Shown: piece by piece, positions 927 to 26,592 of the stretch | How the letters are laid out: every line of letters begins with the position of its first letter | Numbering within the stretch: position 1 is the stretch's first letter | IMG/VR virus record: IMGVR_UViG_3300041955_001975 | Span: 1 to 26,737 of that record | DNA: 26,737 nucleotides | DNA from: a virus | Strand: one strand, 5' to 3' | Notes under the pieces: generated by a model | The model's input: the letters and a program-made list of their open reading frames with translations, nothing else | What the model was told of the DNA's origin: nothing | The model's database searches: none | Position numbers and translations under genes: made by a program

Positions 927-3884
927 CTAACGCCAGTCGTGTGAACATCCAGTCGTTCGGGTGGCTCCAACTTCTTCCGCGTCGTTGGCTTCGACTGCCT
1001 CGATGTTCGGCTGCTTTGTTTCTTGTGTTTCTTGGGCGGCTGCAACATTGCCGCTGGCATGGTCGCGGGGAACGCTGTTGCTGAGCTGTTTTGCTTGCTT
1101 GTTGACCACGGCCGCGCACAAGGGGGACCGAAAAACATTCTTGATGTCGCGCAGCGCCGCGGGGGTGAGCGAATTCTTGGATAGGTCCAAGTTCTGCACA
1201 TAGAAGCGGCTGCCGTCGCCTCGCTCGATCACGCATCCTTGCGTCACTCGCTCCACTCGCTCGATGCCTTGGGTCCGGCAATAGTCGCGGAAGGCGGCGA
1301 CCCAGCGAGCAGAGAAGTCGGCCTCCTTCTCCTGTGACCCCAGCGGCCGGCCTGTCACCAGAGGGCTGTCATTCGGCACCTTGACCTTGGGCTCCGTCAC
1401 CTGGAAGATCCGGTTGAGCTTAAAGATCACCAGTTTCTCCTCCAGGACTCCCTTTTCGCACTGGTAGCCCACGTAAAGGCATTGCAGTGACGAGTGTGCG
1501 GCCTGGAATCGTCCTAGCCGTTGTGAATCTGTCTTGCGCGGGACGGTAAAATTGCCGCCAGCTTTGGTCAGCGAGATCCCCATCTGTGGGATCTCGTCGT
1601 TCTTGCCAGCCCGGAAGTCATCCAGCAGTCGCCGGCGATTCAAGTCATTCGGGTGCGTGCCCATCCCCTCGGTGTTGATAGAAGCCCGGAGGTGCTCCAG
1701 AAGTCGGACATCGGCGTGTAGCATGTCTGCCAAGAGATACGTGCGGAGACCGCTGGAAGTGACCTTACGGATGGACTGTTCCAGCATCTTCAGGGCCGGC
1801 TTCTTCTTTCGCTTCTTTTGCTTGCCTGACCCCTCTTCCGGCAGGGCCGTTTCCGCTTCCACTTCGGGCGGGGCCGCCGCCTCCTTGGCCACCAGGGCGA
1901 TCAGATCCTTTAGCTCCTTATGGAACTCCGCGGCGGACGCCTGCTTCTGATCTTTCCCGGTGAGTCTGTTGGTGCCCACGGGGTCCAGTTTGCAGGTGGC
2001 CTGGTTCTTCTTGTTCCAGTTGAAGGAACTCAGCCGCACTCGCACATAACCTCCGGGCAGGAGCGTCTCAAAGCCGGGAATGATCTCCAGGATGGCGTCG
2101 GCAGGCACGGCGGGCCGCTTCTCGAAAAGCAGCGGAGATGCCTTGAGCACCCGTTCCCTCCAGCGGCAGGCGTGTGACTGGCTGACCCGTCGCAGGGGAG
2201 CGCTCCAAGCGCCAAAGGAAGGCACTTTGCAAGCCAGGATAGCGGCGTCAATGGCGTGATTGTAGTCGTCGCCGTGGTCCTTGGCGTACTCGGGCAGCAT
2301 GATGGTGCGGTAAAGGGCTGTAAGACGCCCCGACTGGGCTCGAATCGCACAGGGCTTTCCTGTGCGGGTCTCGATGCACTGGGCGAGGTAGCGGGCCAAC
2401 GGCCGCGGGACCCGTTGGCTGTTGCCGATATGGGTCAGATCGGAGAGGATCATGGCCAGGGCCTGCTCGGCGTCCAAGGCCGAGCCCGCGTGACGCATCC
2501 GATTCAAGAGGCCCTTCTTGGTATCGTGATAGGGGTGCCTGGCGCGGAAGCCGTCGATCTTACGCTTGCCCACGTATTTGCCGTAGGCTTCGTAGGCGTC
2601 GTCGTGGATTGTCATGCCGGCCTCGGCCGCCGTGCGGGAACCCTTCCTTGCGTTGCAGGCGGGACAGGCAGGCACGATGTTCAGGTAGGCGTCGAAGGGG
2701 AATCGACTTTGCGGTAGCAGGTGCTCGACCTCCGTCAGCGGCGACCTCTTTCCGCAGTAGGCGCATCGGCCGTCAAACTCTTTGGTAAGCATTTCCCGCC
2801 GGTCCTGGAAGCCGTAGGCAGGTCCCTGCTGGTAGTGCTTGTAGGCTTCCGCCTCGTTGATCGACTTGTCCTGCTTGCGGTCCGGGTGGTAGCCCCGCAA
2901 CACGTCGAAGGCCACGCGCTCCACGACGATTTCGTCGATTTGGCCGACCAGGGGCAGCACGCGGGCTTCAAGGTAGCGCCACAGGTCGGTGAAGATTTTC
3001 TGCTCGATGCGGCCCACGTCGGCCGGCGAGAAGTCGGTCTTGGTCGGAATCGTCCGCCCCGTGACAACATACTGGATGTAGACATTAGAGTGTTCACAGC
3101 AAAAGCGAGTACGTCCCGCGGATTCCCCCTGAAGTATGTCGCGTATGTTCTTCTCGTAGACGGCCTTGTGCTTCTGAAAGGCCGGCTCCGGGACCAGCGT
3201 GTATAGCGCCTTGAACGGCACCCTCTTGGGCGATGCAAGGGCCCTGTCGATCCACGATTCCAGGGCTTGCCAGAGTTGGGCCGGGGACTCCCGCCGGCGG
3301 ATGATGTCGGTGAGCCAGGCGAAAAGTGCCTGCTGCAACCGTTCGCGCTTGGCATTCTTGGCCCGCCGGACATTGCGGTCACAACCTTCCCAGGCGCATT
3401 TTGACGGCTTGCGGTTCTCGACCCGCATAGGGCGGATTTCGCGGCGAAGGTGCCGGCGGCATACGGCCAGAACCCGCTCCTGATCTTCACTGGCGATGAG
3501 ACGCTTGATCTCCTGGGTCAAGGCGGTTAGAAATTCATCCCGGGAGATAGCAAACGGCATCTCTTTCTGGTCCTGCTCCTGGTCTTCCTTGGCAGGGTGG
3601 CCGAAGCCGCGACCGCTACAATAGCGGAGCAACTCGTCAGCCTGCTTAGACGGCAGACCCAGGCTGAGGAAAGCCGCCCCCAGCCTTTTCAGCCGGCGGC
3701 GTTTCGTCTTCCTCGTTCTGCGCGCCCGTCGAGCCAAGGCGCGGCTGTCCAGGGTCGTTTCGATAGGCTTCCGTTGGACTTCCATCGTGCCGAGGAACCG
3801 CGGGATGTTGCCTTCCGCCGTTTGCTCCACGACGCTGAAACCGATGTACTTTTCGCCGTAGTCGATTCCCAAGCAGAAGGTCAT
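927..3884 (-). CDS. cas9: Cas9-family RNA-guided endonuclease with IscB-like zinc HNH (985 aa)
   Basis: RNA-guided DNA nuclease with a split RuvC fold and an inserted HNH domain. RuvC-I is CLGIDYGEKYIGFS with catalytic Asp8. An arginine-rich bridge helix follows (about 47-71, including RRARRTRKTKRRR). Residues about 75-310 form a REC-like region. RuvC-II is IDEIVVERV with Glu322. The HNH domain (about 372-418) has CAYCG, EVEHLLPQS (His388), LNIVPACPACNARKG, thus two CxxC zinc pairs. RuvC-III is NHAIDAAILAC with His543 and Asp546. A lysine-rich linker (about 686-698) leads to a C-terminal WED/PAM-interacting-like part. All catalytic residues are present. The frame opens at GTG 3896 and ATG 3890, but ATG 3884 has GAGG six bases upstream and is preferred. 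No cas1, cas2, cas4 or csn2 lies nearby. The last 60 codons overlap a CRISPR-repeat-like sequence. Subtype is unresolved: compact type II-C-like or early branching (II-D-like). Confidence 0.93.
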   Translation of the reverse strand: MTFCLGIDYGEKYIGFSVVEQTAEGNIPRFLGTMEVQRKPIETTLDSRALARRARRTRKTKRRRLKRLGAAFLSLGLPSKQADELLRYCSGRGFGHPAKEDQEQDQKEMPFAISRDEFLTALTQEIKRLIASEDQERVLAVCRRHLRREIRPMRVENRKPSKCAWEGCDRNVRRAKNAKRERLQQALFAWLTDIIRRRESPAQLWQALESWIDRALASPKRVPFKALYTLVPEPAFQKHKAVYEKNIRDILQGESAGRTRFCCEHSNVYIQYVVTGRTIPTKTDFSPADVGRIEQKIFTDLWRYLEARVLPLVGQIDEIVVERVAFDVLRGYHPDRKQDKSINEAEAYKHYQQGPAYGFQDRREMLTKEFDGRCAYCGKRSPLTEVEHLLPQSRFPFDAYLNIVPACPACNARKGSRTAAEAGMTIHDDAYEAYGKYVGKRKIDGFRARHPYHDTKKGLLNRMRHAGSALDAEQALAMILSDLTHIGNSQRVPRPLARYLAQCIETRTGKPCAIRAQSGRLTALYRTIMLPEYAKDHGDDYNHAIDAAILACKVPSFGAWSAPLRRVSQSHACRWRERVLKASPLLFEKRPAVPADAILEIIPGFETLLPGGYVRVRLSSFNWNKKNQATCKLDPVGTNRLTGKDQKQASAAEFHKELKDLIALVAKEAAAPPEVEAETALPEEGSGKQKKRKKKPALKMLEQSIRKVTSSGLRTYLLADMLHADVRLLEHLRASINTEGMGTHPNDLNRRRLLDDFRAGKNDEIPQMGISLTKAGGNFTVPRKTDSQRLGRFQAAHSSLQCLYVGYQCEKGVLEEKLVIFKLNRIFQVTEPKVKVPNDSPLVTGRPLGSQEKEADFSARWVAAFRDYCRTQGIERVERVTQGCVIERGDGSRFYVQNLDLSKNSLTPAALRDIKNVFRSPLCAAVVNKQAKQLSNSVPRDHASGNVAAAQETQETKQPNIEAVEANDAEEVGATRTTGCSHDWR
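1003..1110 (+). ncRNA. Candidate tracrRNA / anti-repeat A, antisense to the 3' end of cas9
   Basis: Bases 1003-1046 match the CRISPR repeat (read on the + strand) at 30 of 35 positions once one 9-bp insertion is set aside. That insertion is an exact tandem copy of TGTTTCTTG (1017-1034). If the array is read leftward, a + strand RNA from here pairs with the whole crRNA repeat. Three of the five differences then become G-U wobbles (1032, 1033, 1042), whereas on the opposite strand all five are mismatches. Two bases after the anti-repeat a small hairpin, TGCC-GCT-GGCA (1049-1059), could act as a nexus. No clear promoter and no T-run terminator are visible, so the end is arbitrary. It could instead be an ectopic or decayed CRISPR repeat trapped in coding sequence. 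Confidence 0.42.
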
Positions 3885-3904
3885 GGTCATCCTCACTCAA
3901 AAGG

Positions 3905-4041
3905 TCGTTTCAGGACTCACCGAATAAGCCAAGGGAGTTGTGCAGAGCAGGGGTCTGTCCCGACCACTGGTGCGTCCCCGGGCAACGGCTCTTTGTAGTC
4001 AACCGGAAACAAAGCATTCGTTCGTTGTACGGGTCATGTGC
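3905..4041 (-). ncRNA. Candidate tracrRNA (anti-repeat B) in the leader between array and cas9
   Basis: The minus strand of 3992-4026 is complementary to the leftward crRNA repeat. Six pairs, UUGUAG with CUACAA (3993-3998), form a lower stem. A short internal loop follows, then CCGG and AAACAAAGCA (4003-4016) form an upper stem of 14 pairs with one bulged G, followed by partial pairing. This lower stem, bulge and upper stem layout is that of known tracrRNA:crRNA duplexes. The promoter-like motif at 4048-4086 would start transcription about 15 bases before it. Downstream the strand can fold: ACC-AGT-GGT, GGTC with GACC, GGGG with CCCC, and TGC-TCT-GCA within 3941-3980. No T-run terminator precedes cas9, so this RNA would be the 5' leader of cas9 mRNA, processed or not. 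The 3' end is a guess. Confidence 0.45.
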
Positions 4042-4047
4042 CCCTGC

Positions 4048-4086
4048 CCATACTAAGAGTTGCAAAATCTGGAAAAGTGGTTTTGG
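4048..4086 (-). promoter_or_regulatory. Recurrent promoter-like motif, copy 1 (upstream of cas9)
   Basis: Read leftward it contains AAAACCACTTTT, then AGATTTTGCAACTCTT, then AGTATGG. Three other places in the window (7881-7920, 12561-12600, 24458-24495) carry the same blocks at identical spacing. It lies between the CRISPR array and cas9, about 160 bases before the cas9 ATG and just before anti-repeat B. The end with RTATGG would serve as a -10-like element and the AACCAGTTTT block as an upstream element or operator. Assignment as a promoter is inference from position and repetition. Confidence 0.55.
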
Positions 4087-4163
4087 CGGAGGGAGATTTT
4101 CTGGGAGGTTCCGCCGCTAGCTCGATGCAAGGACTCATACGGCAGCCTGTTGCGGCGGACAGA

Positions 4164-4451
4164 TTGTTCGGGTGCTTTGTTCCCCGGGCGGCTACAACAA
4201 GCATTTGTTTCCGGCCGCAAACTGGAATACTGTTCGGGTGCTTTGTTTCCCGGGCGGCTACAACTCTACGCGATCAAGCAGAAATTGTTCGGCTGCTTTG
4301 TTTTCCGAGCGGCTACAACTGCTGGATCGTTCGGATCTGTGACTGGTGCGTTGTTCGGGTGCTTTGTTTCCCAGGCGGCTACAACAAAGTGACGAGAGGA
4401 ACAGGCAAGAGTAGTATTGTTCGGGTGCTTTGTCTCCCGGGCGACTGTAAC
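4164..4451 (-). CRISPR. CRISPR array: five 35-bp degenerate repeats, four spacers
   Basis: Repeats lie at 4164-4198, 4230-4264, 4285-4319, 4351-4385 and 4417-4451. Spacers are 31, 20, 31 and 31 bp (4199-4229, 4265-4284, 4320-4350, 4386-4416). Read leftward the repeat starts GTTGTAGCCGCCCGGG, continues AAACAAAGC and ends ACCCGAACAA. The GTTGTAG start and a following T in four of five copies (ACAAT end) match the termini of many type II-C repeats, which is why I prefer leftward transcription. No two repeats are identical: they differ from consensus by 1, 1, 3, 1 and 4 bases. The rightmost copy is decayed at its outer end. Rightward reading cannot be fully excluded. No leader is recognised. Transcripts from the leftward operon beginning near 7,875 could read through it. 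Confidence 0.93.
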
Positions 4452-5980: not shown

Positions 5981-5999
5981 GGTGCAGCTCCTTGGTCAG

Positions 6000-6068
6000 T
6001 ACAACCAGCGGGAATCGAACCCGCATTGCCGGCTGGAAGCCGGTGTCCTGCCGTTAGACGATGGCTGT
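6000..6068 (-). tRNA. tRNA-Gly (anticodon TCC)
   Basis: Read leftward from 6068, a full cloverleaf can be drawn. The acceptor stem is ACAGCCA with TGGTTGT (seven pairs, one G-U). The D arm is GTCT...GGAC with loop AACGGCA. The anticodon loop is CTTCCAG with anticodon TCC. The T arm is GCGGG-TTCGATT-CCCGC, and the discriminator is A. It resembles tRNA-Gly(TCC) genes. It is compact, 69 bases in all: the anticodon stem has only four good pairs (ACCGG opposite CCGGC leaves an outer A-C), base 26 or one pair is missing, and the variable loop is three to four bases. The 3' CCA is not encoded. It sits between two leftward genes and should be cut out of their mRNA. Confidence 0.85.
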
Positions 6069-7880: not shown

Positions 7881-7920
7881 CTCACATAAAGAGTTGCGAA
7901 AACTCTCAAACTGGTTTTAG
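7881..7920 (-). promoter_or_regulatory. Recurrent promoter-like motif, copy 2 (upstream of the SPFH gene)
   Basis: Read leftward: AAAACCAGTTT, then AGTTTTCGCAACTCTT, then TATGTGAG. The blocks have the same spacing as in the other three copies. It overlaps the stop codon of the upstream gene and lies about 50 bases before the SPFH start codon, where a promoter for the leftward operon would be expected. Confidence 0.55.
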
Positions 7921-8212
7921 CGTTCCTCGCTTTTCTTACGGGCGACGCGCTGCTTGCGCGGTTTGGTGATTTCCGACCGGAGGGCTTCTGCGGTCTGGGC
8001 GATCTCCACCGCTTGCAGATCGGCGGCGCTGGCGGCCTGCCGGGCGTCGATTTGGTCGGCGCGAAGACGAGCGACGACCTCCTGGCTGCTGGCGGCGGTT
8101 CGACGATTTCGCTCACGAATCGGGTGAACCACCGGCTGCGTATCAGAAGCTTGTAGACGAGAAGCCCCAAGAAGACTACGACGAGCGTTGCCAGAACTTC
8201 GATGGTTGCCAT
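7917..8212 (-). CDS. Membrane-anchored helical protein, apparently frameshifted
   Basis: The start at ATG 8212 has AGGAG eight bases upstream and opens with a clear membrane anchor (about residues 3-23: TIEVLATLVVVFLGLLVYKLL) and a basic stretch. After about residue 33 that frame turns into Pro/Arg/Ser-rich shadow-like sequence running on to 7805. The neighbouring frame, open from GTG 8132 to TAA 7917, continues plausibly as a charged helix (SSQEVVARLRADQIDARQAA) with a basic tail (PRKQRVARKKSEER). The simplest reading is one gene, anchor plus coiled coil of about 97 residues, split by a frameshift near 8,100-8,130. Whether that is a sequencing error, a mutation, or a pair of overlapping genes cannot be told here. 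No canonical slippery heptamer is evident. Confidence 0.5.
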
Positions 8213-8228
8213 CAGCGTGACTCCTGGT

Positions 8229-8765
8229 TCAGATTCTCGGGTTTACGTCCAGCACCTTCCCAAAACGAGTGAAAGATGCCCTGAAGGAGGGCGCTCTTCG
8301 TCCCCAGTACACGAAGCAACAGGACATGGGTGCTCCCTTCTCGACCACCTTGCCGGCGAGCAGGAACTTCAGCCGAGGCACCCGCAAGAAGCAAATACTC
8401 CTTGCTCTTAGAAACACGTTGTCCTGCCAATGGCGCGTGTTGGTTGCCACGGGGATCAGGGCGATGATTTCCGACTCATGTTGCTCGTAGGCATTGCTGC
8501 ACCTCAACAGCCAGTCCTTGATGCTGGTCCCGTTTGCATTCCTGCCGTAGGGCGGGTTGACGTAGATCGTGGGGAAGTTCCAGGTCTCTCGCAGTCCGTC
8601 GTGTTCCGGCAGCTTGTACTCCACTTTCGCTCCGACGAGGGCGTAGTCATTGGAGCACGGGTCAAGAGCAATCCAGCCACCGAAGAAATCCCGGACGACC
8701 TGGACATATTCCGCGGGCGTATTCCAATCCGTCGTCAGTGAGGTGACGTGTCTTCCGGCGGTCAT
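8229..8765 (-). CDS. Phage Dam-type DNA N6-adenine methyltransferase, 178 aa
   Basis: S-adenosylmethionine-dependent adenine methylase of the small phage family (DNA_N-6-adenine-methyltransferase type). It opens with TTDWNTPAEYVQVV, the usual N-terminus of this family. LDPCSN (34-39) is the cofactor-side motif, and IYVNPPYG (about 67-74) is the catalytic NPPY motif. LIPVATNTRHWQDNVF and the GAPMSCCFVYWG strand are also typical. The length is normal for the family. Such enzymes protect phage DNA from host restriction. The start lacks a good Shine-Dalgarno; a 15-codon ORF (8762-8809) links the previous gene's stop to this ATG by GTGA and ATGA overlaps. No partner restriction enzyme is seen. Confidence 0.9.
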   Translation of the reverse strand: MTAGRHVTSLTTDWNTPAEYVQVVRDFFGGWIALDPCSNDYALVGAKVEYKLPEHDGLRETWNFPTIYVNPPYGRNANGTSIKDWLLRCSNAYEQHESEIIALIPVATNTRHWQDNVFLRARSICFLRVPRLKFLLAGKVVEKGAPMSCCFVYWGRRAPSFRASFTRFGKVLDVNPRI

Positions 8766-8809
8766 GCGGTCTTGCCGCCGATCTTGTGGATTGCTCTCAT
8801 TGCCTTCAC
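8762..8809 (-). CDS. Possible 15-aa relay mini-ORF
   Basis: A 15-codon ORF (VKAMRAIHKIGGKTA) whose GTG overlaps the exonuclease stop as GTGA and whose TGA overlaps the methylase start as ATGA. The exact double overlap suggests a role in passing terminating ribosomes to the methylase gene, which lacks its own ribosome site. A functional peptide is not supported by anything else. Confidence 0.25.
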   Translation of the reverse strand: MKAMRAIHKIGGKTA

Positions 8810-9699
8810 TGCGCCTTTCCCGCGCAGCGGACGCCGATTCGGATAAGGCGGACCACCATTTCTGCGTCCTCCACGGCGGTGTGGGCGACTTCGCCCTTGA
8901 TCCCGGCCCGTTCCATGCAGGTCTTCGAGTCGGGCAGCCTTTCGTCCGTGCCGGGCAGCCAGTAGAAGAGGGTCGGGTCGAGGACGCGGTGGTTCAGCTT
9001 GACCGTCCGCTTGAAACCGGGCAGCCTGTCGAGAAACGGCTTGTCGAAGCTGGCGAAGTTCTTGCCCGCAGGCGTCAAGCTCGTCTTGCCGTCCCAGCCC
9101 TGCGCCCGCAGCCAGGAGCAAAAGCTCTCGGCAACCTCGCCCGGCGACAGGACGGAGTTGTCGCGTGGCCCGGACAAACGTTTCAAGATTTTCGAGTTGA
9201 GGGCCAGGGCGTAGGGCTCGCCGGTGTAGACGGGATGGGCGATGTAGCGGTGGAAGATCGGCAGGGTTTCGAGCATACCGCCGTTGTCATAGATGGCCCC
9301 GATCTCAAGAATCTGGCAGGTCTCGGGGTCAAGGCCAGTCGTCTCCAGGTCGATGGAGACGTAGGGCATCTTGATCTTGGAGGACAGTTCCTTGAGGCCC
9401 TTGCTGGCGTGGCCGTTCCAATGGCACTGGCAACACTCGAAAATTGCTTCGTTCTCTGCCCTCTGCGTGAGCACGGCATGGCATACGGGACAGTACATGA
9501 TGGCCTCGACGATGATGGCGTTATGGGCTGCGAGTACGTCGCGCACCCAGTCTTCGTTCTCGCTGTGAGTAGCCCCGCAGGCACATGGGCCCACCAGCAT
9601 GTCGCACGGCGTACTGCCGTTGAAGCGTCTGAAGGTCCAGTCGGCGGGCCAAGGCACCATGCCGCTGCGCAGATACTTTCGCAGGACTCGTGGGTTCAC
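8806..9699 (-). CDS. DEDDh 3'-5' exonuclease fused to an N-terminal zinc-ribbon region (297 aa)
   Basis: The C-terminal part (about 112-290) is a DnaQ-like exonuclease. Exo I is YVSIDLETTGLD (Asp117, Glu119), Exo II is NFASFDKPFLDR (Asp219), and Exo III is HTAVEDAEMVVRL (His273, Asp278). All four acidic residues and the catalytic His are present, so it should be active on 3' DNA or RNA ends. The N-terminal 110 residues are not part of the usual fold and carry CACG, CPVC (70-73) and CCQC (89-92), a likely zinc ribbon. The open frame extends to 9762, but GTG 9699 overlaps the previous stop as GTGA and has GAGAGG six bases upstream, so I start there. Likely roles are phage DNA replication proofreading, recombination or nucleotide recycling. 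Confidence 0.85.
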   Translation of the reverse strand: MNPRVLRKYLRSGMVPWPADWTFRRFNGSTPCDMLVGPCACGATHSENEDWVRDVLAAHNAIIVEAIMYCPVCHAVLTQRAENEAIFECCQCHWNGHASKGLKELSSKIKMPYVSIDLETTGLDPETCQILEIGAIYDNGGMLETLPIFHRYIAHPVYTGEPYALALNSKILKRLSGPRDNSVLSPGEVAESFCSWLRAQGWDGKTSLTPAGKNFASFDKPFLDRLPGFKRTVKLNHRVLDPTLFYWLPGTDERLPDSKTCMERAGIKGEVAHTAVEDAEMVVRLIRIGVRCAGKAQ

Positions 9700-10088
9700 T
9701 TCGGGCCTCTCAAAAGTGTCTTTGCGGCTTTGTAGTCGGCGTCTACTGTGGCGGCGTGCCACTGTACAAAGTCCATTTCGTCCGTGGCGTCGGCCGTTGT
9801 GACCGCTATCAACCGTTGCACAGTCTCCATGTCATGCCGAAGCTGCTCAGCGGATAGAATCGCGTTGATCTGGCCGGTGCCCGGGACAACCGCGGCTTCA
9901 TATTCCACCAGGAAGGAGGCGGCTAGCTCGCGGTAGATGGCGACCAGGATCTTGAGCCTTTCGCTGAGTTGCTTAATGCGGACAAGGTGCCTCTCACTCA
10001 GCCGCACGGTTGCCTGAAAGGTCTCCAGTGCCTTCGTCATTTCCGGCGTGGCAGGTGTCGCGTTAGGGTCGGAGTCCAGGTTGCTCAT
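9696..10088 (-). CDS. Helical hypothetical protein, 130 aa
   Basis: Not recognised. ATG 10088 has GGAG eight bases upstream and overlaps the previous gene's stop as ATGA; the upstream extension of the frame looks like shadow. After a Pro/Thr/Asp-rich N-terminus the protein is almost entirely helical (residues about 17-125), with heptad-like stretches such as LSERHLVRIKQLSERLKILV and AEQLRHDMETVQRLI, so it probably forms a coiled coil or helical bundle. No enzyme motif is visible. It is translationally coupled on both sides, so it may work with the adjacent zinc-ribbon protein or exonuclease. Confidence 0.75.
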   Translation of the reverse strand: MSNLDSDPNATPATPEMTKALETFQATVRLSERHLVRIKQLSERLKILVAIYRELAASFLVEYEAAVVPGTGQINAILSAEQLRHDMETVQRLIAVTTADATDEMDFVQWHAATVDADYKAAKTLLRGPK

Positions 10089-10432
10089 TCCGTCTTCTCC
10101 TCGGACTCGTCCAGAGGACCGACCTCGGGGTGCGCGACCCCGAAAATCCTCAGTAGGCTTTCCAGGCACGAGGCGACGGCTCCTCGAACCTCTTGCATCT
10201 CGTGGCGCTCGACGTTGCCGTGCTCACAGGCCAGTTCCACGAGAAGTTCCTTGCGGCAAATGTCCCGGTACAAGTCGAGTGCCTGCATGACGCTGGTGGC
10301 CAGTTCGCCGGTGTGCGGCGGCTTCTTCAGAGCCTCGCACTGTCCGCCCCACCAGCCGCACGCGAGACACAAACGGTCCGGCTCAGGCGTTACCTGGAGC
10401 GGCTTGCCGCACTTGGGACAGAATTCGCTCAT
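10085..10432 (-). CDS. Zinc-ribbon protein, 115 aa
   Basis: Small soluble protein with an N-terminal zinc ribbon: FCPKCGKPL (Cys5, Cys8) and LCLACGWWG (Cys22, Cys25), with another Cys at 32. A helical region follows (about 45-100) and an acidic tail (GPLDESEEKTE). The ribbon suggests nucleic-acid or protein contact. ATG 10432 has AGGAG six bases upstream, and the stop overlaps the next start as ATGA. The family is not recognised beyond the zinc motif. Confidence 0.78.
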   Translation of the reverse strand: MSEFCPKCGKPLQVTPEPDRLCLACGWWGGQCEALKKPPHTGELATSVMQALDLYRDICRKELLVELACEHGNVERHEMQEVRGAVASCLESLLRIFGVAHPEVGPLDESEEKTE

Positions 10433-10441
10433 GGCGATCTC

Positions 10442-10822
10442 CTACTGGACCGGCCCCATGCCGGGCCCGACGTTGCGGACTAGGTTCACGTCCTGGATGC
10501 CCTTGAAGGTCAGGTTGAACTCGCGGACCGCGCGCTTGAACTCGGGGTCCCCGAAGCGCTGGCGAATCTGCGCCAAGGCCAGTTTCACCTTGTCCTTGGA
10601 GGCTTTGGCCGCCGCACTCCGGCCGCCCATCGTGCCAGCATCGGTCTTGATCTGCTCCCGCAGGGCGGCGAGCTGCGCCTTACCGCGGTCCTTCTGGTTT
10701 CCGACCAGCTTGAGTTGGGCGCGGGCCTCGCGCTGACCGCCGCTGGAGGCCGCCGCCTTGAGGGGCATTACCACGTCGAGTTTCCGGGCTCGGGCAGGGT
10801 TGCTCGCTTTCGCTTTGGCCAT
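10442..10822 (-). CDS. Basic Ala/Lys-rich hypothetical protein, 126 aa
   Basis: Unrecognised. ATG 10822 is preceded by CAGGAG seven bases away. The protein is basic and helical (MAKAKASNPARARKL, GGQREARAQLKLVGNQKDR, AAAKASKDKVKLALAQIRQR) and ends in a short neutral tail (VRNVGPGMGPVQ). The high lysine and arginine content without hydrophobic segments fits a DNA- or RNA-associated protein, but this is only a composition argument. It ends ten bases before the zinc-ribbon gene downstream. Confidence 0.68.
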   Translation of the reverse strand: MAKAKASNPARARKLDVVMPLKAAASSGGQREARAQLKLVGNQKDRGKAQLAALREQIKTDAGTMGGRSAAAKASKDKVKLALAQIRQRFGDPEFKRAVREFNLTFKGIQDVNLVRNVGPGMGPVQ

Positions 10823-10873
10823 TTTCTGGCTCCTGGTTTAGTGGGTTGCTTGTTTCCGGGCGACCGCGTGAAA

Positions 10874-11266
10874 TCACACGCCTAGCTCCCGGAGGGCTTG
10901 GACTTCGTCTGCCGTGAGCTTCTTGAGCGCTTGCCGCCGGGCTTTGACGAGCCCTTCGTACTCTTTCGCTTCTTGGCGGAACCGAGCGATTGCCTCTTGG
11001 TAGGCTTTGCGGCAGGCTTCCTTCGTCCCTTGGCCGGAGCCTCCACAGGCGGCGCAGGGGACGGTGCGCCGGTCTCGGTTGCCTTCGACCGGGCACGGCG
11101 GGTCTTGCGGGTCGTAGTTCCATCCTCGGCCGGAACAAGCGAGACAGGGCCACTTGTCGGCAGGGTGCAGTCCGAGCCAGTGCTGCTTGGTGGCAAACTC
11201 TTGCAGGCTTCGATAGGGTCGGACGGGCTTGACATGCTTCCATCCGGTGCTGAAGGTGCAAGGCAT
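10874..11266 (-). CDS. DnaJ-type zinc-finger protein, 130 aa
   Basis: Contains two CxxCxGxG-like units of the DnaJ zinc-centre type: CLACSGRG (Cys41, Cys44) and CAACGGSG (Cys71, Cys74). Further Cys residues at 58 and 85 may complete the sites. The C-terminal third is a charged helix (about 84-128) and no J domain is present. Small phage proteins with isolated DnaJ-type zinc centres are common and of unknown role. ATG 11266 has GAGGAA about five bases upstream. It overlaps the end of the upstream frame by almost 385 bases, which is unusual. The cysteine pattern argues that this is the genuine coding frame in the shared part. Confidence 0.75.
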   Translation of the reverse strand: MPCTFSTGWKHVKPVRPYRSLQEFATKQHWLGLHPADKWPCLACSGRGWNYDPQDPPCPVEGNRDRRTVPCAACGGSGQGTKEACRKAYQEAIARFRQEAKEYEGLVKARRQALKKLTADEVQALRELGV

Positions 11267-11694
11267 TCGTCTTCCTCTTCGTAGCGCGGCGTGACGTATC
11301 GCGTGAGAAGCTCAAAGGTCTTGCGGCTGAGCTTCTTGCGAGCCCACACAGGAATCCCCGTGGGCAGCTTGCCGAAGATTTCCACCAGGCCCCGCACACC
11401 CGTCGCTTCACAGGCTTTGGTCCAGAGCCGCTTGTGGCGTTCGCAAGATTCCCGGGCCTTCGCCAAGACCTTGAAAAGGCGATGGCCGGGGTCCGTGAAG
11501 TCCCACATCGGGAAGTTCTCGCCCTCCTTACCGCCGAAGTTCGGGACGATGATGCGGACGGTCGCCTGATAGCGGCCGGGCATCCGCACGCCGTCGTACT
11601 CCCTGCGCCAGACGATTCGGTATCCGTCTTCGGAGAGCCAGGTCCGCCGGACCTTTCCTTTCTGGCCGCGTTTCTTCTTGCGCGTGAACTCCAT
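10882..11694 (-). CDS. Basic hypothetical protein with long overlapping C-terminal frame, 270 aa
   Basis: Unrecognised. ATG 11694 has GGGAG eight bases upstream and an ATGA overlap with the preceding small gene. The first roughly 150 residues look genuine: a basic N-terminus (MEFTRKKKRGQKGK), beta-type stretches (GYRIVWRREYDGVRMPG, ATVRIIVPNFGG) and a helical part (RLFKVLAKARESCERHKRLW). From about residue 150 on, the frame becomes Ser/Pro/Lys/Arg-rich and fully overlaps the DnaJ-type zinc gene in another frame. Either the protein really has a disordered basic tail encoded by overlap, or an indel has removed the original stop near 11,250. The functional part is probably 11,240-11,694. Confidence 0.6.
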   Translation of the reverse strand: MEFTRKKKRGQKGKVRRTWLSEDGYRIVWRREYDGVRMPGRYQATVRIIVPNFGGKEGENFPMWDFTDPGHRLFKVLAKARESCERHKRLWTKACEATGVRGLVEIFGKLPTGIPVWARKKLSRKTFELLTRYVTPRYEEEDECLAPSAPDGSMSSPSDPIEACKSLPPSSTGSDCTLPTSGPVSLVPAEDGTTTRKTRRARSKATETGAPSPAPPVEAPAKGRRKPAAKPTKRQSLGSAKKRKSTKGSSKPGGKRSRSSRQTKSKPSGS

Positions 11695-11771
11695 CACTTG
11701 GGCTCCCCGTGAACACAACCGAACTCGGGACCGGGGATTATCCCCCAGCCCTTGTCGTCTTCAATGCACAT
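11694..11771 (-). CDS. Mini-protein, 25 aa
   Basis: A 25-residue ORF (MCIEDDKGWGIIPGPEFG, then CVHGEPK). ATG 11771 has AAAGG about eight bases upstream and the stop overlaps the next gene's ATG as ATGA. The sequence is not low-complexity and holds a Trp, two Cys and a His, so a metal-binding micropeptide is conceivable. The larger open frame reaching 11951 looks like shadow upstream of this ATG. Evidence is position and ribosome site only. Confidence 0.45.
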   Translation of the reverse strand: MCIEDDKGWGIIPGPEFGCVHGEPK

Positions 11772-11833
11772 GGTTCGCACCTTTCTTAGCGGGCCGGACG
11801 AGCGCCCCGCCAGGGTTTGCTGGAGGCCGGCGA

Positions 11834-12857: not shown

Positions 12858-13133
12858 TACCGGCACCCTTGCGGATCGTCCGGGTTGTCGGCATCGTGCC
12901 GGCCCGCGACCGAGAAAACGCACCACGAAGAAGAGGCTACCCAAGGACGTTGAAGAGAAGACGAAGACCGTTCAGTTCGGCGGGCAGGGTTGGGGATCAA
13001 GCGGGGTAGGCCGCAAGTTCACGTTCCTCTCTCGGCTCTTGACGCCACCTATGGGGTGGGTGCGCTGAGGGGCATCCCAGCGGAAACAGTTTTATTCAGC
13101 GGTTTCTCGCGCCGTTTAGAATGGGGGGGGATA
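12858..13133. other. Divergent intergenic region, no gene seen
   Basis: This separates the leftward block from the rightward WG-repeat genes. Frames across it are open on the + strand but have no ribosome site and poor composition. A G-run (13123-13130) and a TAGAAT near 13117 are present, the latter without a good -35. I see no terminator and no repeat here. Confidence 0.4.
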
Positions 13134-13162
13134 TTGCTTAGCACCCCGCCGTTGGCTAGAAT
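13134..13162 (+). promoter_or_regulatory. Sigma70-like promoter of the first WG-repeat gene
   Basis: TTGCTT (13134-13139), a 17-base spacer and TAGAAT (13157-13162) form a near-consensus promoter. The predicted start near 13,169 leaves a leader of about 45 bases with AGAGGG eight bases before ATG 13215. It resembles a bacterial housekeeping promoter and is unlike the recurrent motif of the leftward genes. Confidence 0.6.
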
Positions 13163-13214
13163 TGCGGTTATTCCAGGGCTTCGATGGCGTGAACCTGAGC
13201 AGAGGGTGACTGAT

Positions 13215-14873
13215 ATGGGTGTGCGTCTCAGTGTCTACTCGGGCGTTCTTGTGCCCCTTCAAAACGTGCTGGAACTGATTCCCCCCAAGCACTATTCCCA
13301 AATGCTCAAGCAAGCCAGGAATGCCTGCGAGACAGACGAGGAATTTCGGAAGGCGTTCGGCGAATTGGATAGGAGTGAGACACTTACCCTCGACGACTTG
13401 AAGGACCGTCTGTACGAGACTGCCAAGAGTCTTTTGGCCCGCGATGAGGCATCGTCATCCTGCATTGAAGAACAGGACCATCAAACGCTGTTCTCGTTAC
13501 TATTCGAGGGTCTGCCGCACAGGTTTGGCTTCGTAGACAACTTGGGGCAATGGGTAGCGGGACCACCTTTTGACGAGCTAGGTGGATTCCATGAGGGACT
13601 TTCCTCTGCAAGGAAGAACGGCCTGTGGGGTGTGATTGACAAGCAAGGGCAGTGGGTGATTGACCCGCACTTTGAGGACATCGGTGAGTTTCGGAGGGGG
13701 CTGGCAGCCGCAAAGAGCCATGAAGGGTGGGGCTTTATCGACGCCAAAGGCAAGTGGGTCATCGAGCCAATGTTCGACGACGCCAGGACTTTTGACGAAG
13801 GCCCAAACGGCGTGAACTCCAATGCGTTGTGGGGTTTCATTGATGCGCAAGGGAAATGGTTGATTGAGCCGCAATTCTCCTTTATTGGCCGCTGGTCGGC
13901 CATCGGCTATGAGGGATTCGTGGACGGCCTTGCTGCTGCGTCGCAAGATGGCCTCGTCGGCTATATCGACGAGGAAGGACGATGGGTTATCGAGCCCCAG
14001 TTCGAGAACAGCGATGGGTTCGTCATGGGGCTTGCCCGTGCAAGAAAAGGAAAATCCTGGGGCATTATTGACAAACAGGGCAAGTGGGTCGTCGAACCGC
14101 AATTTGCCGACTTATCTCGCCCTGATGCGACAGGTGTGTATCGGGCAAAGTCTGATAATCTATGGGGACTTCTGGACCGACATGGCCAATGGATCATTTC
14201 TCCAACATTTCAATGCATCGGCCAGTTTGAGAAGGGAGTGTGGTTCGCCGCTGTTGATGATAAATACGGTACAATGACCGCAGAGGGGAAATGGCTCATT
14301 ACTCCACGTTTTGAACGGCTGGGACCGTTGTGTGATGGGCTCTCTGCTGCCAAACACGAGCGCTATGGCTTTGTTGACAAGGCAGGCAAATGGGTGATTG
14401 AACCCCAATTCGAGGAAGTCGAAGAGTTTCGTGAGGGTTATGCGCTTGCAAAGAGCGAGGGGTTATGGGGTGTAATTGATCGTTCAGGCAAATGGGTGGT
14501 CGCTCCGAAATTCGACAACACATACTGCGGCTCGTGGACCTTCGAGGACGGTGTGGCAGTGTTCAAACACGAAGGAGTGTGGGCAGGCATCAATCCAAGG
14601 GGCGAATGGGTCATTGAACCCGCGTGCAGGTACGTAGCTTTGTCAAAAGAAGAAGAGCCCGCTGGCGGACATGTGTTACCGAAAATCAAGGAGATCGTGG
14701 CTTTCCACTGGTATAATGTGACGGATGGATTGCGCTACGATCTCGGTGAGCCGTTTGTCGTGTTCGACAAGTCCGATTGTGTGGTCGAGCGGCTGACCGA
14801 ACCAGGGGAAGTTCTTGCGAGGGCCCTCGGCGTGGAAGAATTGCATTCAACACACTATGCACATTATGGTTGA
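13215..14873 (+). CDS. WG-repeat protein, 552 aa (copy 1)
   Basis: Eleven WG (KWG-type) repeats of about 33-40 residues run from about residue 95 to 460, of the form WGVIDKQGQWVIDPHF. Each forms a small beta unit, and together they build a repeat scaffold for protein binding. Before them is a helical N-terminal region (MGVRLSVYSGVLVPLQNVLE ...) with a degenerate EF-hand-like loop (ELDRSETLTLDDLKD, about 50-64), two residues shorter than a true loop. After them is a short tail. No membrane segment or signal peptide is seen. I start at ATG 13215 because AGAGGG lies eight bases upstream and the same ATG and leader are conserved in the second copy. It is on the opposite strand from its neighbours with its own promoter, and looks like cargo. 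Confidence 0.85.
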   Translation: MGVRLSVYSGVLVPLQNVLELIPPKHYSQMLKQARNACETDEEFRKAFGELDRSETLTLDDLKDRLYETAKSLLARDEASSSCIEEQDHQTLFSLLFEGLPHRFGFVDNLGQWVAGPPFDELGGFHEGLSSARKNGLWGVIDKQGQWVIDPHFEDIGEFRRGLAAAKSHEGWGFIDAKGKWVIEPMFDDARTFDEGPNGVNSNALWGFIDAQGKWLIEPQFSFIGRWSAIGYEGFVDGLAAASQDGLVGYIDEEGRWVIEPQFENSDGFVMGLARARKGKSWGIIDKQGKWVVEPQFADLSRPDATGVYRAKSDNLWGLLDRHGQWIISPTFQCIGQFEKGVWFAAVDDKYGTMTAEGKWLITPRFERLGPLCDGLSAAKHERYGFVDKAGKWVIEPQFEEVEEFREGYALAKSEGLWGVIDRSGKWVVAPKFDNTYCGSWTFEDGVAVFKHEGVWAGINPRGEWVIEPACRYVALSKEEEPAGGHVLPKIKEIVAFHWYNVTDGLRYDLGEPFVVFDKSDCVVERLTEPGEVLARALGVEELHSTHYAHYG

Positions 14874-15069
14874 ACGGACGGCCAATAATCGTCGCCACTT
14901 CCCAAACACACCAGTGGCAGATAAGGGCGCGGACACACCAACACCACTCATTGTGCGGTCGCGCCAACAAGAGCGAGGAGCCTCCTAACAGAACATCAGT
15001 TGCCAGCCGCACGGAGCAATGATGGCCCAGAAGGTGGTGGTATCGACAAGTCGAATTCATCCTGCGCTT
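14874..15069. other. Spacer between the two WG-repeat genes
   Basis: No gene is seen. It holds no clear terminator and no obvious promoter for the second copy, which may be co-transcribed from the promoter at 13,134. From 15070 the sequence repeats the leader of copy 1. Confidence 0.4.
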
Positions 15070-15118
15070 GGTTATCCCAGGGCTCCGATGGCGTCAACCT
15101 GAACAGAGGGCGACTAAT

Positions 15119-16771
15119 ATGGGTATGGATGTCAGTGTCCACTCGGGCGTTCTTGTGCCACTCCAAAGCGTACTTCGCTTCATTCCTGCGAAGCGCTATT
15201 CCCAAATGCTCAAGCAAGCCAGGAATGCCTGCGAGACAGACGAGGCATTTCGGAAGGCGTTCGGTGAATTGGATAGGAGTGGCACAATTACCTTCGACGA
15301 GTTGAAGGACCGTCTGTACAAGACAGCCAAGAGTCTTTTGGCCACCGATTCGGAAACGCTTCAGTGGAGTGAAATCGACGAATACGAACATCAAACGCTG
15401 TTCTCGTTACTATTGGAGAGTCTGCCGCACAGGTTTGGCTTCCTCGACAACTCGCGGCAATGGGTAGCGGGACCACCTTTTGACGAGCTAGGTGGATTCC
15501 ATGAGGGACTGTGCTCTGCAAAGACGAACGGGCTGTGGGGTGTGATTGACAAGCAAGGACGTTGGGTGATTGACCCGCACTTCGAGGACATCGGTGACTT
15601 TCACAGGGGGCTGGCAATCGCATCGAGCCATGATTTGTGCGGCTTTATCGACGCCAAAGGCAGGTGGGTCATCGAGCCAATGTTCGACGGGGCCGAGACC
15701 TTCATCGAAGGCCCAAACTTTGCGAGTTCCGATGGATTGTGGGGTTTCATTGATGCGCAAGGGAAATGGTTGATCGAGCCGCGATTCAAGCCCATCTGCG
15801 TCGGTTTCGTGGACGGCCTTGCTGCCGTGAGGCAAGACCAACTCGTCGGCTATATCGACGAGGAAGGACGATGGGTTATCGAGCCCCAGTTCGTGGAAAG
15901 CTCTCACTTCGTCATGGGGCTTGCCCTAGCAGAGGCGGACGGAGGATCATGGGGCATTATTGACAAACAGGGCAAGTGGGTTGTCGAACCGCAGTTCGCC
16001 GACTTATCTCTGTCTGGTGCGCCAGGCGTATATTGGGCAAAGTCTGATAATCTATGGGGACTTCTGGACCGACACGGCCAATGGCTCATTTCTCCTACAC
16101 TTCAATTCATCGAAGGGCCGTTCACAAACGGGGTCGCGGTCGCCATTGTTGATGGTAAGTACGGTGCAATAACCGTAGAGGGGAAATGGCTCATTCCCCC
16201 GCACTTTGAATGGTTGGGACCGTTGTGTGATGGGCTCTTGTGTGCCGCCGAGAACGATCGCGTTGGCTTTGTTGACAAGATGGGCGAATGGGTGATTGAA
16301 CCTCAATTCGAGCAAGTCGAACCGTTTCGTGAGGGTCATGCTCTTGCAAAGAGCGAGGCGTTATGGGGTGTAATTGATCGTTCAGGCAAATGGGTGGTCG
16401 CTCCGAAATTCGACGACCCAGAATACGGCTGGACGTTCGAGGACGGTGTGGCAGTGTTCAAGCACGAAGGAGTGTGGGCAGGCATCAATCCAAGGGGCGA
16501 ATGGGTCATTGAACCCGCGTGTAAGTACGTAACCTTGTCGGAAGATGAAGAGCCCGCTGGGGGACATGTCTTACCGAAAATCAAGATGATTCTGGCTTTC
16601 CACCAGCCTAGATTGACGGGTACATGGGATTTCAAAGACGGTGAGCCGTATGTTGTATTCGACAAGTCCGAGTTCGTCGTCGAGCGGCTGACTGAAAACG
16701 CGGAGGCTCTCGCCAAGGTTATCGGTGAGGAAAACCTACATTGCAACCACTGGACGAATTTTAGCAACTGA
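15119..16771 (+). CDS. WG-repeat protein, 550 aa (copy 2)
   Basis: Paralogue of the preceding gene with the same layout: helical N-terminus (MGMDVSVHSGVLVPLQSVLR), an EF-hand-like helix-loop-helix (ELDRSGTITFDELKDRLYK) and eleven WG repeats such as WGVIDKQGRWVIDPHF and WGFIDAQGKWLIEP. The loop is closer to a true EF hand than in copy 1 but still lacks two residues. One repeat has lost its leading W (CGFIDAKGRWVI) and others begin VG or YG. ATG 15119 has AGAGGG eight bases upstream. The C-terminal tails of the two copies are the most different part, suggesting different partners. Function unknown. Confidence 0.85.
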   Translation: MGMDVSVHSGVLVPLQSVLRFIPAKRYSQMLKQARNACETDEAFRKAFGELDRSGTITFDELKDRLYKTAKSLLATDSETLQWSEIDEYEHQTLFSLLLESLPHRFGFLDNSRQWVAGPPFDELGGFHEGLCSAKTNGLWGVIDKQGRWVIDPHFEDIGDFHRGLAIASSHDLCGFIDAKGRWVIEPMFDGAETFIEGPNFASSDGLWGFIDAQGKWLIEPRFKPICVGFVDGLAAVRQDQLVGYIDEEGRWVIEPQFVESSHFVMGLALAEADGGSWGIIDKQGKWVVEPQFADLSLSGAPGVYWAKSDNLWGLLDRHGQWLISPTLQFIEGPFTNGVAVAIVDGKYGAITVEGKWLIPPHFEWLGPLCDGLLCAAENDRVGFVDKMGEWVIEPQFEQVEPFREGHALAKSEALWGVIDRSGKWVVAPKFDDPEYGWTFEDGVAVFKHEGVWAGINPRGEWVIEPACKYVTLSEDEEPAGGHVLPKIKMILAFHQPRLTGTWDFKDGEPYVVFDKSEFVVERLTENAEALAKVIGEENLHCNHWTNFSN

Positions 16772-23326: not shown

Positions 23327-23973
23327 CTCCTCCCTCGCTTCGCGGTTCGCTTGGCGGTCAGGCGATTTCTCCGGCCGATGTACCGGCTTGCAGACTCGAC
23401 GCAAGGTTTGCCCATCCAGTTGAAGAAGTACCAGCGGTTGAGCCGGTCGATCACCGGGTCGTGGTCGATGTGCCGCAGGTAGGTCTTCACTTCGTCCCAC
23501 GTCGAGAAGATCATCTCGAAGGGGAGCGTGCCGAAGAGCCAATCCGGGCAGTTCTCGATGCCCTGAGCCACGCGAACGAGGATGGGCTTCTTTTCCCGGT
23601 TGGCCAGGAACAACTCTTCGTAGGTGCCCGTTGCGTGAACTTGCAGGTCGATGTTCACGATGAGGAAGTCGGCCACGTCCACCATCCGCAGATCGACCGG
23701 GCGAATCTGCTTCATCTGGTTGCGGACGAACTCAAAGTCGCCGGATCGCTTCGCCTTGTGGCGCAGTTCGCGGTTCTCCAGGTCTTCGACGCCGATGTCG
23801 ATGGGCTTTCGGCACGGGTCGAGCCAGAGGATGTTCAGGTCGCTCAACGAGTCGATCAGGTCTTGACGCCAGCCGATGCCGCCGTCAATCACGCGGTCCA
23901 TTGCCCCGCACAGGTAGCCCCGGTTCAGGGCCAGCCGGTTCATGGCGGGCTTTCTCACGGCCTGTTTCTTCAC
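23323..23973 (-). CDS. Nucleoside 2-deoxyribosyltransferase-like protein, 216 aa
   Basis: Nucleoside deoxyribosyltransferase fold: RGYLCGAMDRV (18-28) corresponds to the nucleotide-binding YLAGPM-type start. RMVDVADFLIVNID (96-109) holds the substrate-binding Asp. GTYEELFLANREKKPILV (116-133) holds the catalytic Glu region. Such enzymes swap bases on deoxyribose or hydrolyse deoxynucleoside monophosphates and are found in large phages. A basic C-terminal tail (RRNRLTAKRTAKRGRR) is unusual. I start at GTG 23973, which overlaps the deoC stop as GTGA and has AGGAA upstream; ATG 23943 is an alternative. Being next to deoC, it likely belongs to a deoxynucleoside salvage pathway. Confidence 0.8.
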   Translation of the reverse strand: MKKQAVRKPAMNRLALNRGYLCGAMDRVIDGGIGWRQDLIDSLSDLNILWLDPCRKPIDIGVEDLENRELRHKAKRSGDFEFVRNQMKQIRPVDLRMVDVADFLIVNIDLQVHATGTYEELFLANREKKPILVRVAQGIENCPDWLFGTLPFEMIFSTWDEVKTYLRHIDHDPVIDRLNRWYFFNWMGKPCVESASRYIGRRNRLTAKRTAKRGRR

Positions 23974-24665
23974 GGGAGCAATTCCTGGAACTTGGACGAG
24001 CCGATGCGGGTGCAACCCATGTCCAGGTAACGGACTGCATCAGCGTAAGTGTTGATCCCGCCGCTGGCCTTGACTCCGCACCAATAATCGCCCCTTACGG
24101 CGTCAAGCATGATCCGCACCACGTCTGGGGTTGCTCCGTGCGGGGCGACGCCGGTCGAGGTCTTGATGTAATCCACGCCGCAATCAGCGCACAGGCGGGA
24201 GGCGTCCCTTATCTGGGACGGCGTGTAATAGCAAGTCTCCAGGATGGCTTTGACGATCGCCCCTCGCGGGCGGGCCTCGGCGACAATCTGGGTCAGCTCG
24301 GTCCTTATTGGGCCCGGATCGCCATCCAGGAGCCGGCCGTAGTTGACCACTACGTCGATCTCCTTCGCCCCGGAACCCATTGCCTCCACGGCCTCCACCG
24401 TCTTGGTAAACGGAGTGGTGTTGCCGTGCGGGAAACCGACAACAGCACACACTCGGTCCGTATAAAGAGTTGCAAAACAGACAAAACTGGTTGGGACGCA
24501 GACGGATTTTATTCCGTAGCGGTTCACCATCTCGCAGGCTGCGCGCACCTCGGCCGCCGTTGCGGTGGGCTTCAACACTGCCAGGTCCAGGGAGTCGGCA
24601 ATGCGCTTTACAGCGGTTGCGCGGTCGTCGGGTGTGGCTTCAGGCTCGATCTGATTGTTGTTCAT
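23970..24665 (-). CDS. deoC: Deoxyribose-phosphate aldolase, 231 aa
   Basis: Class I aldolase that splits 2-deoxyribose-5-phosphate into acetaldehyde and glyceraldehyde-3-phosphate. Key residues are present: Asp104 in EIDVVVNYG, the Schiff-base Lys168 in DYIKTSTG, and Lys199 in GVKASGGINTYADAV, with ILETCYY and the phosphate-site GCTRIGSS. The segment after SVCVPTSF (about 60-71) is roughly five residues shorter than in typical family members. It is encoded by the fourth copy of the recurrent promoter-like motif. Start ATG 24665 overlaps the methylase stop as ATGA. It feeds salvage together with the deoxyribosyltransferase downstream. Confidence 0.9.
   Translation of the reverse strand: MNNNQIEPEATPDDRATAVKRIADSLDLAVLKPTATAAEVRAACEMVNRYGIKSVCVPTSFVCFATLYTDRVCAVVGFPHGNTTPFTKTVEAVEAMGSGAKEIDVVVNYGRLLDGDPGPIRTELTQIVAEARPRGAIVKAILETCYYTPSQIRDASRLCADCGVDYIKTSTGVAPHGATPDVVRIMLDAVRGDYWCGVKASGGINTYADAVRYLDMGCTRIGSSKFQELLP
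24458..24495 (-). promoter_or_regulatory. Recurrent promoter-like motif, copy 4 (inside deoC)
   Basis: Read leftward: CAACCAGTTTTG, then TGTTTTGCAACTCTT, then TATACGG, with the same spacing as the other copies. It is the only copy inside a coding region, near codons 60-72 of deoC, and encodes FVCFATLY. If active it would transcribe the 3' part of deoC and the genes downstream. Confidence 0.42.
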
Positions 24666-25491: not shown

Positions 25492-26592
25492 CTACGCGGC
25501 CTCCCCATTGTCTTCCGCGTTGTTGCGGCCGATGAAGTCGGCCGACTTGCTCTTGAGGACCATTCGGCCGCGCAACACTTCGCTGTAGGTCTCGACGAGC
25601 GGCGTGATGACGATGCCCTCCCGGTCCTTGAACTTGGACTTCACTTCCGTTGCCAGGGTCGTCGGACCGCAGGTTAGGGCCTCGACCATCTTGGGGCTGA
25701 AGGGTCCTTGATAGAGCAGTGGGACCAGTTCGACCCCGAAGTTGTTGCACATCGTTTTCACGATGCTCCAATCGAGATAGTCCCCGTCATCCGTGATGTC
25801 GAACACGCGGTAGCCCAGCTCGCCCGCAGGCACCCCATAGTCGAGATCCTGGACGCCGGGGCCGTACAACTCGCCGAAGACGACGATGTTCCGGCGCTCG
25901 CCGCAGAGCGTGTTGAGCATTGCCAGCAAGCCTTCGTTCTCCAGCGGACGCCAGTAGACGGAAGTCTGGCCCTCCCACTCGCGCTTGCGGTTCTTCTTGT
26001 GTGAGCCAGCCATGAATTGGAACTCGCCCTCGACCTGGATCACGCCGACCCGGCTGTTGGTGCCGTGGATCTTTTCCGTCACGCGGACCGGCGTGCCGAC
26101 CGGGATGGCGTCCGGGTAGCGATAGTGATTCTGGATGTCCGTGTAGATGTGGAAGGCGGGATGCTCGGGAGCCAGGCCACCCCAGGCCGCCCCTTTGATC
26201 TGGCCGTTTCGCCATGTCGGCGGCTCGTACTTCTGGCCGCGGTAGTAGCCGGTCACGTCGCAGCCGGAGCCGGTGTGGGCCATGTCCATTGGAATGTGGG
26301 CGACGAAGCCGTAGCTGGCGACGCTTCGCAGGCGGCAGGCGGCGACACGGCAGGGAATCTTCCGACCGTCCAAGAGCGAACTCTTGAGGTACTTCTGCAC
26401 GCCCAGTTTCTCGGACACGTCGCCGGGGAGAAGCATGTCGGGCGGGAAGTAGACCACCAGATCGCCGGCCTGGTACTCGCCTTTGGGCACGACGCATTGC
26501 GTGCCGAGAATCCTGGCGACCTCCAGCCGATCGGCCTGCGGGTGCGGCTCGACGGCCTTGATGCTTTCGACGGTGATGCTAATGTCGGACAT
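25492..26592 (-). CDS. RNA ligase of the DRB0094/Rnl5 type, 366 aa
   Basis: ATP-dependent RNA ligase with an N-terminal OB-type domain, as in Deinococcus DraRnl. Residues 1-120 (VESIKAVEPHPQADRLEVAR, CVVPKGEYQAGDLVVYFPPD) form the OB part. The nucleotidyltransferase part follows with motif I VTEKIHGTNSRVG (Lys174 is the nucleotide-accepting lysine), motif III VFGELYG (Glu241), motif IV REGIVITP (Glu325) and motif V RMVLKSKS (Lys347, Lys349). All motifs are intact. Members of this family seal nicks with a 3'-OH RNA strand. In a phage a likely role is repair of RNA or tRNA broken by host defence, fitting the tRNA gene in this region. The ribosome site upstream of ATG 26592 is weak. Confidence 0.92.
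   Translation of the reverse strand: MSDISITVESIKAVEPHPQADRLEVARILGTQCVVPKGEYQAGDLVVYFPPDMLLPGDVSEKLGVQKYLKSSLLDGRKIPCRVAACRLRSVASYGFVAHIPMDMAHTGSGCDVTGYYRGQKYEPPTWRNGQIKGAAWGGLAPEHPAFHIYTDIQNHYRYPDAIPVGTPVRVTEKIHGTNSRVGVIQVEGEFQFMAGSHKKNRKREWEGQTSVYWRPLENEGLLAMLNTLCGERRNIVVFGELYGPGVQDLDYGVPAGELGYRVFDITDDGDYLDWSIVKTMCNNFGVELVPLLYQGPFSPKMVEALTCGPTTLATEVKSKFKDREGIVITPLVETYSEVLRGRMVLKSKSADFIGRNNAEDNGEAA

Follow-up and report, generated by a model that had tools for sequence, protein, structure and literature searches.

In IscB systems the guide, the scaffold and the nuclease lie in that order on one strand. The locus described here has the same guide-scaffold-nuclease order on a single strand, but IscB has a single omega-RNA and no array, whereas this locus has a crRNA array and a separate tracrRNA, and its Cas9 measures 985 aa as against 426-459 aa in five sampled IscB proteins. 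It lies in the window, by which we mean the whole analysed stretch of 26,737 nucleotides, occupying one end of a virus record of 113,838 bases. The record encodes terminase, portal, tape-measure, family A DNA polymerase and primase proteins and is thus that of a tailed phage, with no close isolate in the searched collection (top terminase matches were below 30% identity).

The current classification of type II systems is described in PMC12669027. Type II-D Cas9d (the MG34 family; PMC9755519, PMC11706934) resembles the window in several respects: it is the best NCBIfam match of the window protein, it is a compact Cas9, the RRXRR match is shared, its tracrRNA lies beside the array, and adaptation genes are often missing. 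It differs in that the window protein scores 107.3 bits on the Cas9d model, against a curated cut-off of 375 bits, that tracrRNA and array of the sampled Cas9d loci are on the opposite strand, and that the tree does not group the two. Type II-C systems of Neisseria and Pasteurella are similar in having a repeat that starts with GTTGTAG and ends with ACAAT and a tracrRNA upstream of cas9; in our Pasteurella multocida control, unlike in the window, this upstream tracrRNA runs divergently from cas9, and the locus carries cas1 and cas2. A phage-encoded II-C2 variant has been described (PMC12669027), likewise a Cas9 relative in a phage, but its RuvC is inactive, whereas the RuvC and HNH residues are kept in the window protein. 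In S. pyogenes a long tracrRNA, tracr-L, directs Cas9 to the cas promoter, which is thereby repressed (PMC11417352). As in the model considered below, a form of the tracrRNA is there tied to control of cas expression, so that coupling of the two is in general not new; the way proposed for the window differs, the link being shared transcription.

The phage Cas9 and the nearest relative found

A split RuvC plus HNH effector, a CRISPR array and a candidate tracrRNA with an anti-repeat place the locus in type II (Table 1). All catalytic residues of RuvC and HNH are kept, namely the RuvC-I D (LGIDYG), the RuvC-II E (IVVERVAFD), HNH (TEVEHLLPQ...CNARKG) and the RuvC-III H/D (NHAIDAAILA). Like the Cas9d score, the other NCBIfam scores of the protein, 73 bits for IscB (curated cut-off 175 bits) and 51 bits for Csn1, are far below the curated cut-offs. 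Viral contigs, scanned with the single protein, with two alignments and with HNH fragments, yielded no Cas9 relative closer than a 25% HNH-level match. The AlphaFold model (pLDDT 44) was given no weight.

Table 1. Features of the phage locus, in window positions except for the last row
Feature	Position	Strand	Remarks
CRISPR array	4163..4451	-	five 36-nt repeats, diverged from one another; spacers of 30, 19, 30 and 30 nt; crRNA probably read leftward
Phage promoter-like element	4048..4083	-	one of 11 genome copies; points toward tracrRNA and cas9
tracrRNA and putative cas9 5' leader	3899..4049	-	predicted RNA start near 4047-4049
Anti-repeat of tracrRNA (GCTTTGTTTCCGGTTGACTACAAA)	3992..4015	-	from identity to the inverted repeat and from the fold
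tracrRNA hairpin	3942..3973	-	32 nt; equal-length counterpart in relative L113, two compensatory pair changes
cas9	927..3884	-	985 aa from ATG at 3884; GTGAGG Shine-Dalgarno at 3891-3896
Dead CRISPR repeat B	1002..1046	-	inside 3' end of cas9 ORF; 9-nt in-frame insertion
Spacer-sized interval	972..1001	-	30 nt, between dead repeats B and C
Dead CRISPR repeat C	955..971	-	16-nt internal deletion
Element copies (phage record positions)	4063, 7897, 12577, 24473, 31217, 34174, 40042, 50453, 56912, 63898, 95740		nine leftward

In 395 genomes of one bacterial phylum, a single Cas9 was found to align with that of the window over almost the full length (E = 5e-98; 957 aa; 36-37% identical), at locus G726:C209 (L113). 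This locus (7905-11812) consists of a stand-alone cas9 and an array on a bacterial chromosome, with no NCBIfam match above cut-off (105.6 bits on the Cas9d model). Its cas9 has folC and a tRNA-Arg on one side and the array of 12 repeats on the other, and all of them share one strand. It is like the window in having a homologous tracrRNA scaffold and in keeping cas9, tracrRNA and array on one strand; it is unlike it in its chromosomal location, in the tracrRNA being behind cas9, and in the 12 repeats, whose sequence is unrelated. In a tree of the catalytic core, which left out the larger archaeal II-D proteins (formerly II-C2), the window and L113 proteins form a clade (97% bootstrap) on a deep branch. 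The tree prefers grouping this clade with canonical Cas9; grouping it with the sampled Cas9d proteins was not rejected (p-AU 0.13-0.16), and grouping the window protein with IscB was weakly rejected (p-AU about 0.04). The window Cas9 belongs to a small and apparently undescribed branch that arises deep in the tree, near where Cas9d, IscB and canonical Cas9 part. Among phages, the search with flanking genes found one fragment of a related phage, which stops short of the CRISPR-Cas locus; a 291-aa neighbour protein had no match in that search.

A probable tracrRNA on the cas9 strand

The earlier note on this DNA had read, leftward, an array, a promoter-like motif, an anti-repeat, a hairpin-rich stretch and cas9, and this order is confirmed at the positions of Table 1. 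The computed crRNA-tracrRNA fold has 6 bp in its lower and about 13 bp in its upper stem, the part between them being interrupted, and comes close to the 6 pairs, loop and 14 pairs of that reading. The identity of the anti-repeat to the inverted repeat scores 27.0, which was reached by none of 500 shuffles of neighbouring intergenic DNA; genome-wide, a score of 27 is near noise level. With the same processing, five of six bacterial Cas9d loci gave scores of 27-39, so that the window value falls within the range of accepted cases. Duplex energy does not discriminate (95 of the 500 shuffles were as good), because the DNA is GC-rich. No tracrRNA family of Rfam matched, and similarity to the nexus of the Neisseria tracrRNA (sequence from PMC6594998) was not significant and was equal for this site (site A) and for a second site, B, discussed below. 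Taken on this single locus alone, the case for the anti-repeat is moderate.

The deciding evidence comes from the comparison with L113. The gap between cas9 and array in L113 aligns with window positions 4012-3900 with a score of 50, reached by none of 1000 shuffles, and the other regions compared were not significant, save the same alignment on the complementary strand. In both loci AAAGAGC directly follows the lower stem, and a 32-nt hairpin stands in the same register, 19 and 20 nt after that stem. Between the two hairpins two pairs have changed on both sides and two have changed to G-U, and the G-U pairs of the L113 hairpin form only on the leftward strand. The lower stem covaries with the repeat of each locus (UUGUAG/CUACAA in the window, UUCCAAUC/GAUUGGAA in L113). 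The covariation in related loci that the earlier note had named as a check is present in this relative, both in the lower stem and, as two compensatory changes, in the hairpin. A homologous scaffold, a conserved hairpin and a stem that still pairs support both the identification as a tracrRNA and its leftward reading. The proposal of a tracrRNA on the cas9 strand thus holds up, and we regard the stretch 3899-4049 as a supported candidate for a leftward tracrRNA, on the strength of the homologous scaffold in the relative; the scaffold comparison rests on one homologous tracrRNA. How the conserved hairpin closes is uncertain, since AGAGC can alternatively pair with GCUCU in both loci. As for the claim that 3941-3980 is rich in hairpins, one hairpin there recurs in the distant relative's tracrRNA, while the folding energy of the region is no better than that of shuffles (z about 0). 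Together the window and L113 tracrRNAs provide a first handle on the guide RNA of this deep Cas9 branch.

The duplex energy is better when array and anti-repeat are read rightward, away from cas9 (-39.5 against -30.8), which would suit transcription of both in that direction. We consider such transcription very improbable: the phage element is oriented leftward, the pairs of the conserved hairpin survive only in the leftward reading, and the canonical order of anti-repeat followed by scaffold likewise holds only there. Moreover, the cas9-proximal, 5'-most repeat of L113 is also degenerate, matching the repeat at 4416, the more diverged one of the window array.

Dead repeats in the 3' end of cas9 and the order of the locus

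Of all sites outside the array, the one in the phage genome that matches the repeat best is site B (1002-1046), within the 3' end of cas9, which the earlier note did not list. RNA from its plus strand (1004-1046) would pair near-perfectly with the crRNA, and this complementarity is far stronger than that of the anti-repeat (-55.5 against about -31 kcal/mol). One could accordingly take site B for the true tracrRNA, antisense to the 3' end of cas9, and the match at 3992-4015 for a by-product. We hold this to be extremely unlikely. A second degenerate repeat, C, stands exactly 30 nt beyond B (local score P = 0.023; none of 1934 genome segments matched both score and register), which points to a relic of repeat, spacer and repeat. 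The region after B has no significant similarity to the non-coding regions of L113, whereas the region of site A does, and no promoter or terminator match lies near B. As a tracrRNA, site B was therefore rejected: it is a dead repeat with a second degenerate repeat in register.

At the boundary of B, the third-position GC of cas9 drops from about 0.78 to about 0.5, and the Cas9 of L113 ends just before the corresponding point. Together with the 30-nt register of C, this identifies B and C as a dead repeat-spacer-repeat unit, and the last approximately 40 codons of cas9 (window 927-1050) read through it. This origin of the C-terminal codons from a dead array is a new finding that the earlier note did not contain. 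The fused array shows a phage-borne locus rearranging while cas9 stays open. We also observe that tracrRNA and cas9 are bordered on both sides by directly oriented repeats.

The window thus runs array, tracrRNA, cas9, dead array on one strand. The order in L113 is cas9, tracrRNA, array, also on one strand, and five of the six sampled Cas9d loci have cas9 with tracrRNA and array behind it on the opposite strand. The suggestion of an IscB-type layout was not borne out, given these two arrangements, the score on the IscB model and the tree. The earlier note had also asked whether homologous loci keep cas9 and repeat without this stretch, and the answer is mixed: the stretch is conserved in L113, but its position is not. 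The resemblance to IscB is hence one of order, not of descent, and the guide-scaffold-nuclease order seems to have come about by a rearrangement peculiar to this phage. That the dead array lies behind cas9, on the side where L113 carries its array, suggests that the rearrangement took place in the phage lineage.

The promoter-like element and a possible shared transcript

The promoter-like motif that had been noted near 4048-4086 proved to be real, in that the same element occurs in 11 copies in the phage genome, with a chance expectation of about 0.5 for its 9-mer core. Its consensus is AAACCAGTT-N7-TTTTGCAACTCTT-nnTnnGG, N7 being seven variable bases, and it is unlike a sigma-70 promoter. 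In six cases the element stands 26-51 nt ahead of the start codon of a reading frame of 60 aa or more (85, 453, 412, 205, 1059 and 103 aa); other copies are followed by longer stretches. For cas9 the distance from element to start is about 150 nt, and the extra length is filled by the tracrRNA candidate. The element is also preserved, with a different variable middle, in a copy on a short fragment from a related phage. Neither T7-type RNA polymerase nor sigma-70 region 2 domains were found in the phage, the polymerase search being one in which no control rang.

The tracrRNA candidate lies between the sole recognised phage-type promoter element and the start of cas9, and a search of the stretch between 8000 and 3700 revealed no terminator on the leftward (minus) strand. 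A shared transcript is thus the simplest reading, and we think it likely that this is a compact phage type II locus in which one leftward RNA from about 4048 serves as tracrRNA and then as cas9 message. RNA polymerase would start at the element and proceed leftward, the first 150 nt or so of the RNA being the tracrRNA and the rest the message. The tracrRNA part would anneal to the crRNA repeats; RNase III and trimming would presumably separate it from the message, after which it would be loaded into newly made Cas9. The supply of scaffold and enzyme would in this way be tied to the expression programme of the phage. The array lacks its own copy of the element and would probably be fed by read-through from the 7897 copy or by a weak, unrecognised promoter. 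The identity and strand of the tracrRNA rest on comparison; the start site, the shared transcript, its processing and the targets are inferred.

Type II systems that have been characterised mostly carry the tracrRNA as a unit by itself, whose position and strand vary (PMC3936727; PMC6199352). It could here, too, be a real leftward RNA with a short transcript of its own, cas9 being expressed mainly from another, such as read-through from the element at 7897, which could drive a long leftward transcript free of terminators, or from an unrecognised promoter immediately ahead of cas9; tracrRNA and cas9 would then be uncoupled. We judge this unlikely, as no terminator follows the tracrRNA, no second promoter match was found between it and cas9, and the distance from the conserved hairpin to the cas9 Shine-Dalgarno is only about 50 nt. 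Even so, cas9 transcripts could begin at a separate site that went unrecognised.

A more far-reaching version of the shared transcript is a tentative possibility, and on balance a doubtful one: that the tracrRNA acts as a regulatory 5' UTR of cas9. Pairing with crRNA and cleavage of the leader by RNase III would then release the tracrRNA and alter translation or stability of the message, so that Cas9 output would track guide supply, and an ordinary dual-RNA Cas9, in a previously undescribed deep branch, would be wired like an IscB/omega-RNA unit. If the leader model with its shared transcript is true, one phage promoter yields Cas9 together with its obligatory RNA cofactor, enzyme and scaffold are kept in step, and a canonical dual-RNA Cas9 has converged on the wiring seen in its transposon ancestors.

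The array, its spacers and the phage neighbourhood

The five repeats of the array (minus strand: GTTGTAGCCGCCCGGGAAACAAAGCACCCGAACAAT) all differ from one another, and since every repeat is mutated and one spacer has only 19 nt, the array may be decaying. By extension the whole locus might be a decaying passenger, with a degenerate array, a Cas9 that is not deployed and a disused tracrRNA; the dead second array fused into cas9 fits such a view. So do the spacers, which have no match above 13 nt within the phage itself or in the related phage fragments, and the array, which together with the tracrRNA region had no meaningful match in phage and plasmid records; the repeat sequence is absent from the searched viral contigs. 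Against decay, cas9 is open over 985 codons, with third-position GC strongly biased as far as roughly codon 945, the nuclease residues are all in place, and the promoter-like element is intact. We therefore regard the passenger explanation as quite improbable.

No Cas1 match was found in the phage record in a search for cas1 in which the controls rang, the record being possibly incomplete; adaptation genes are common in type II loci but not obligatory. The four spacers would accordingly make up a fixed set, whose likeliest targets are competing mobile elements. The spacer nearest the tracrRNA (window 4199-4228) contains GGCCGGAAACAAATGC, which is similar to the core of repeat and anti-repeat, and may thus be partly derived from a repeat.

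The surroundings of the locus hold some further features. Upstream of the array, a tRNA-Gly (TCC) gene (window 5999-6068) lies within the leftward gene cluster. Two adjacent paralogous proteins with nine WG repeats (PF14903) each are encoded at window 12990-14873 and 15068-16771, on the strand opposite to most genes. Genes for a DeoC-like aldolase and for an RNA ligase (PF09414 with a PHA02142 OB-fold) are found at window 23970-24665 and 25492-26592.
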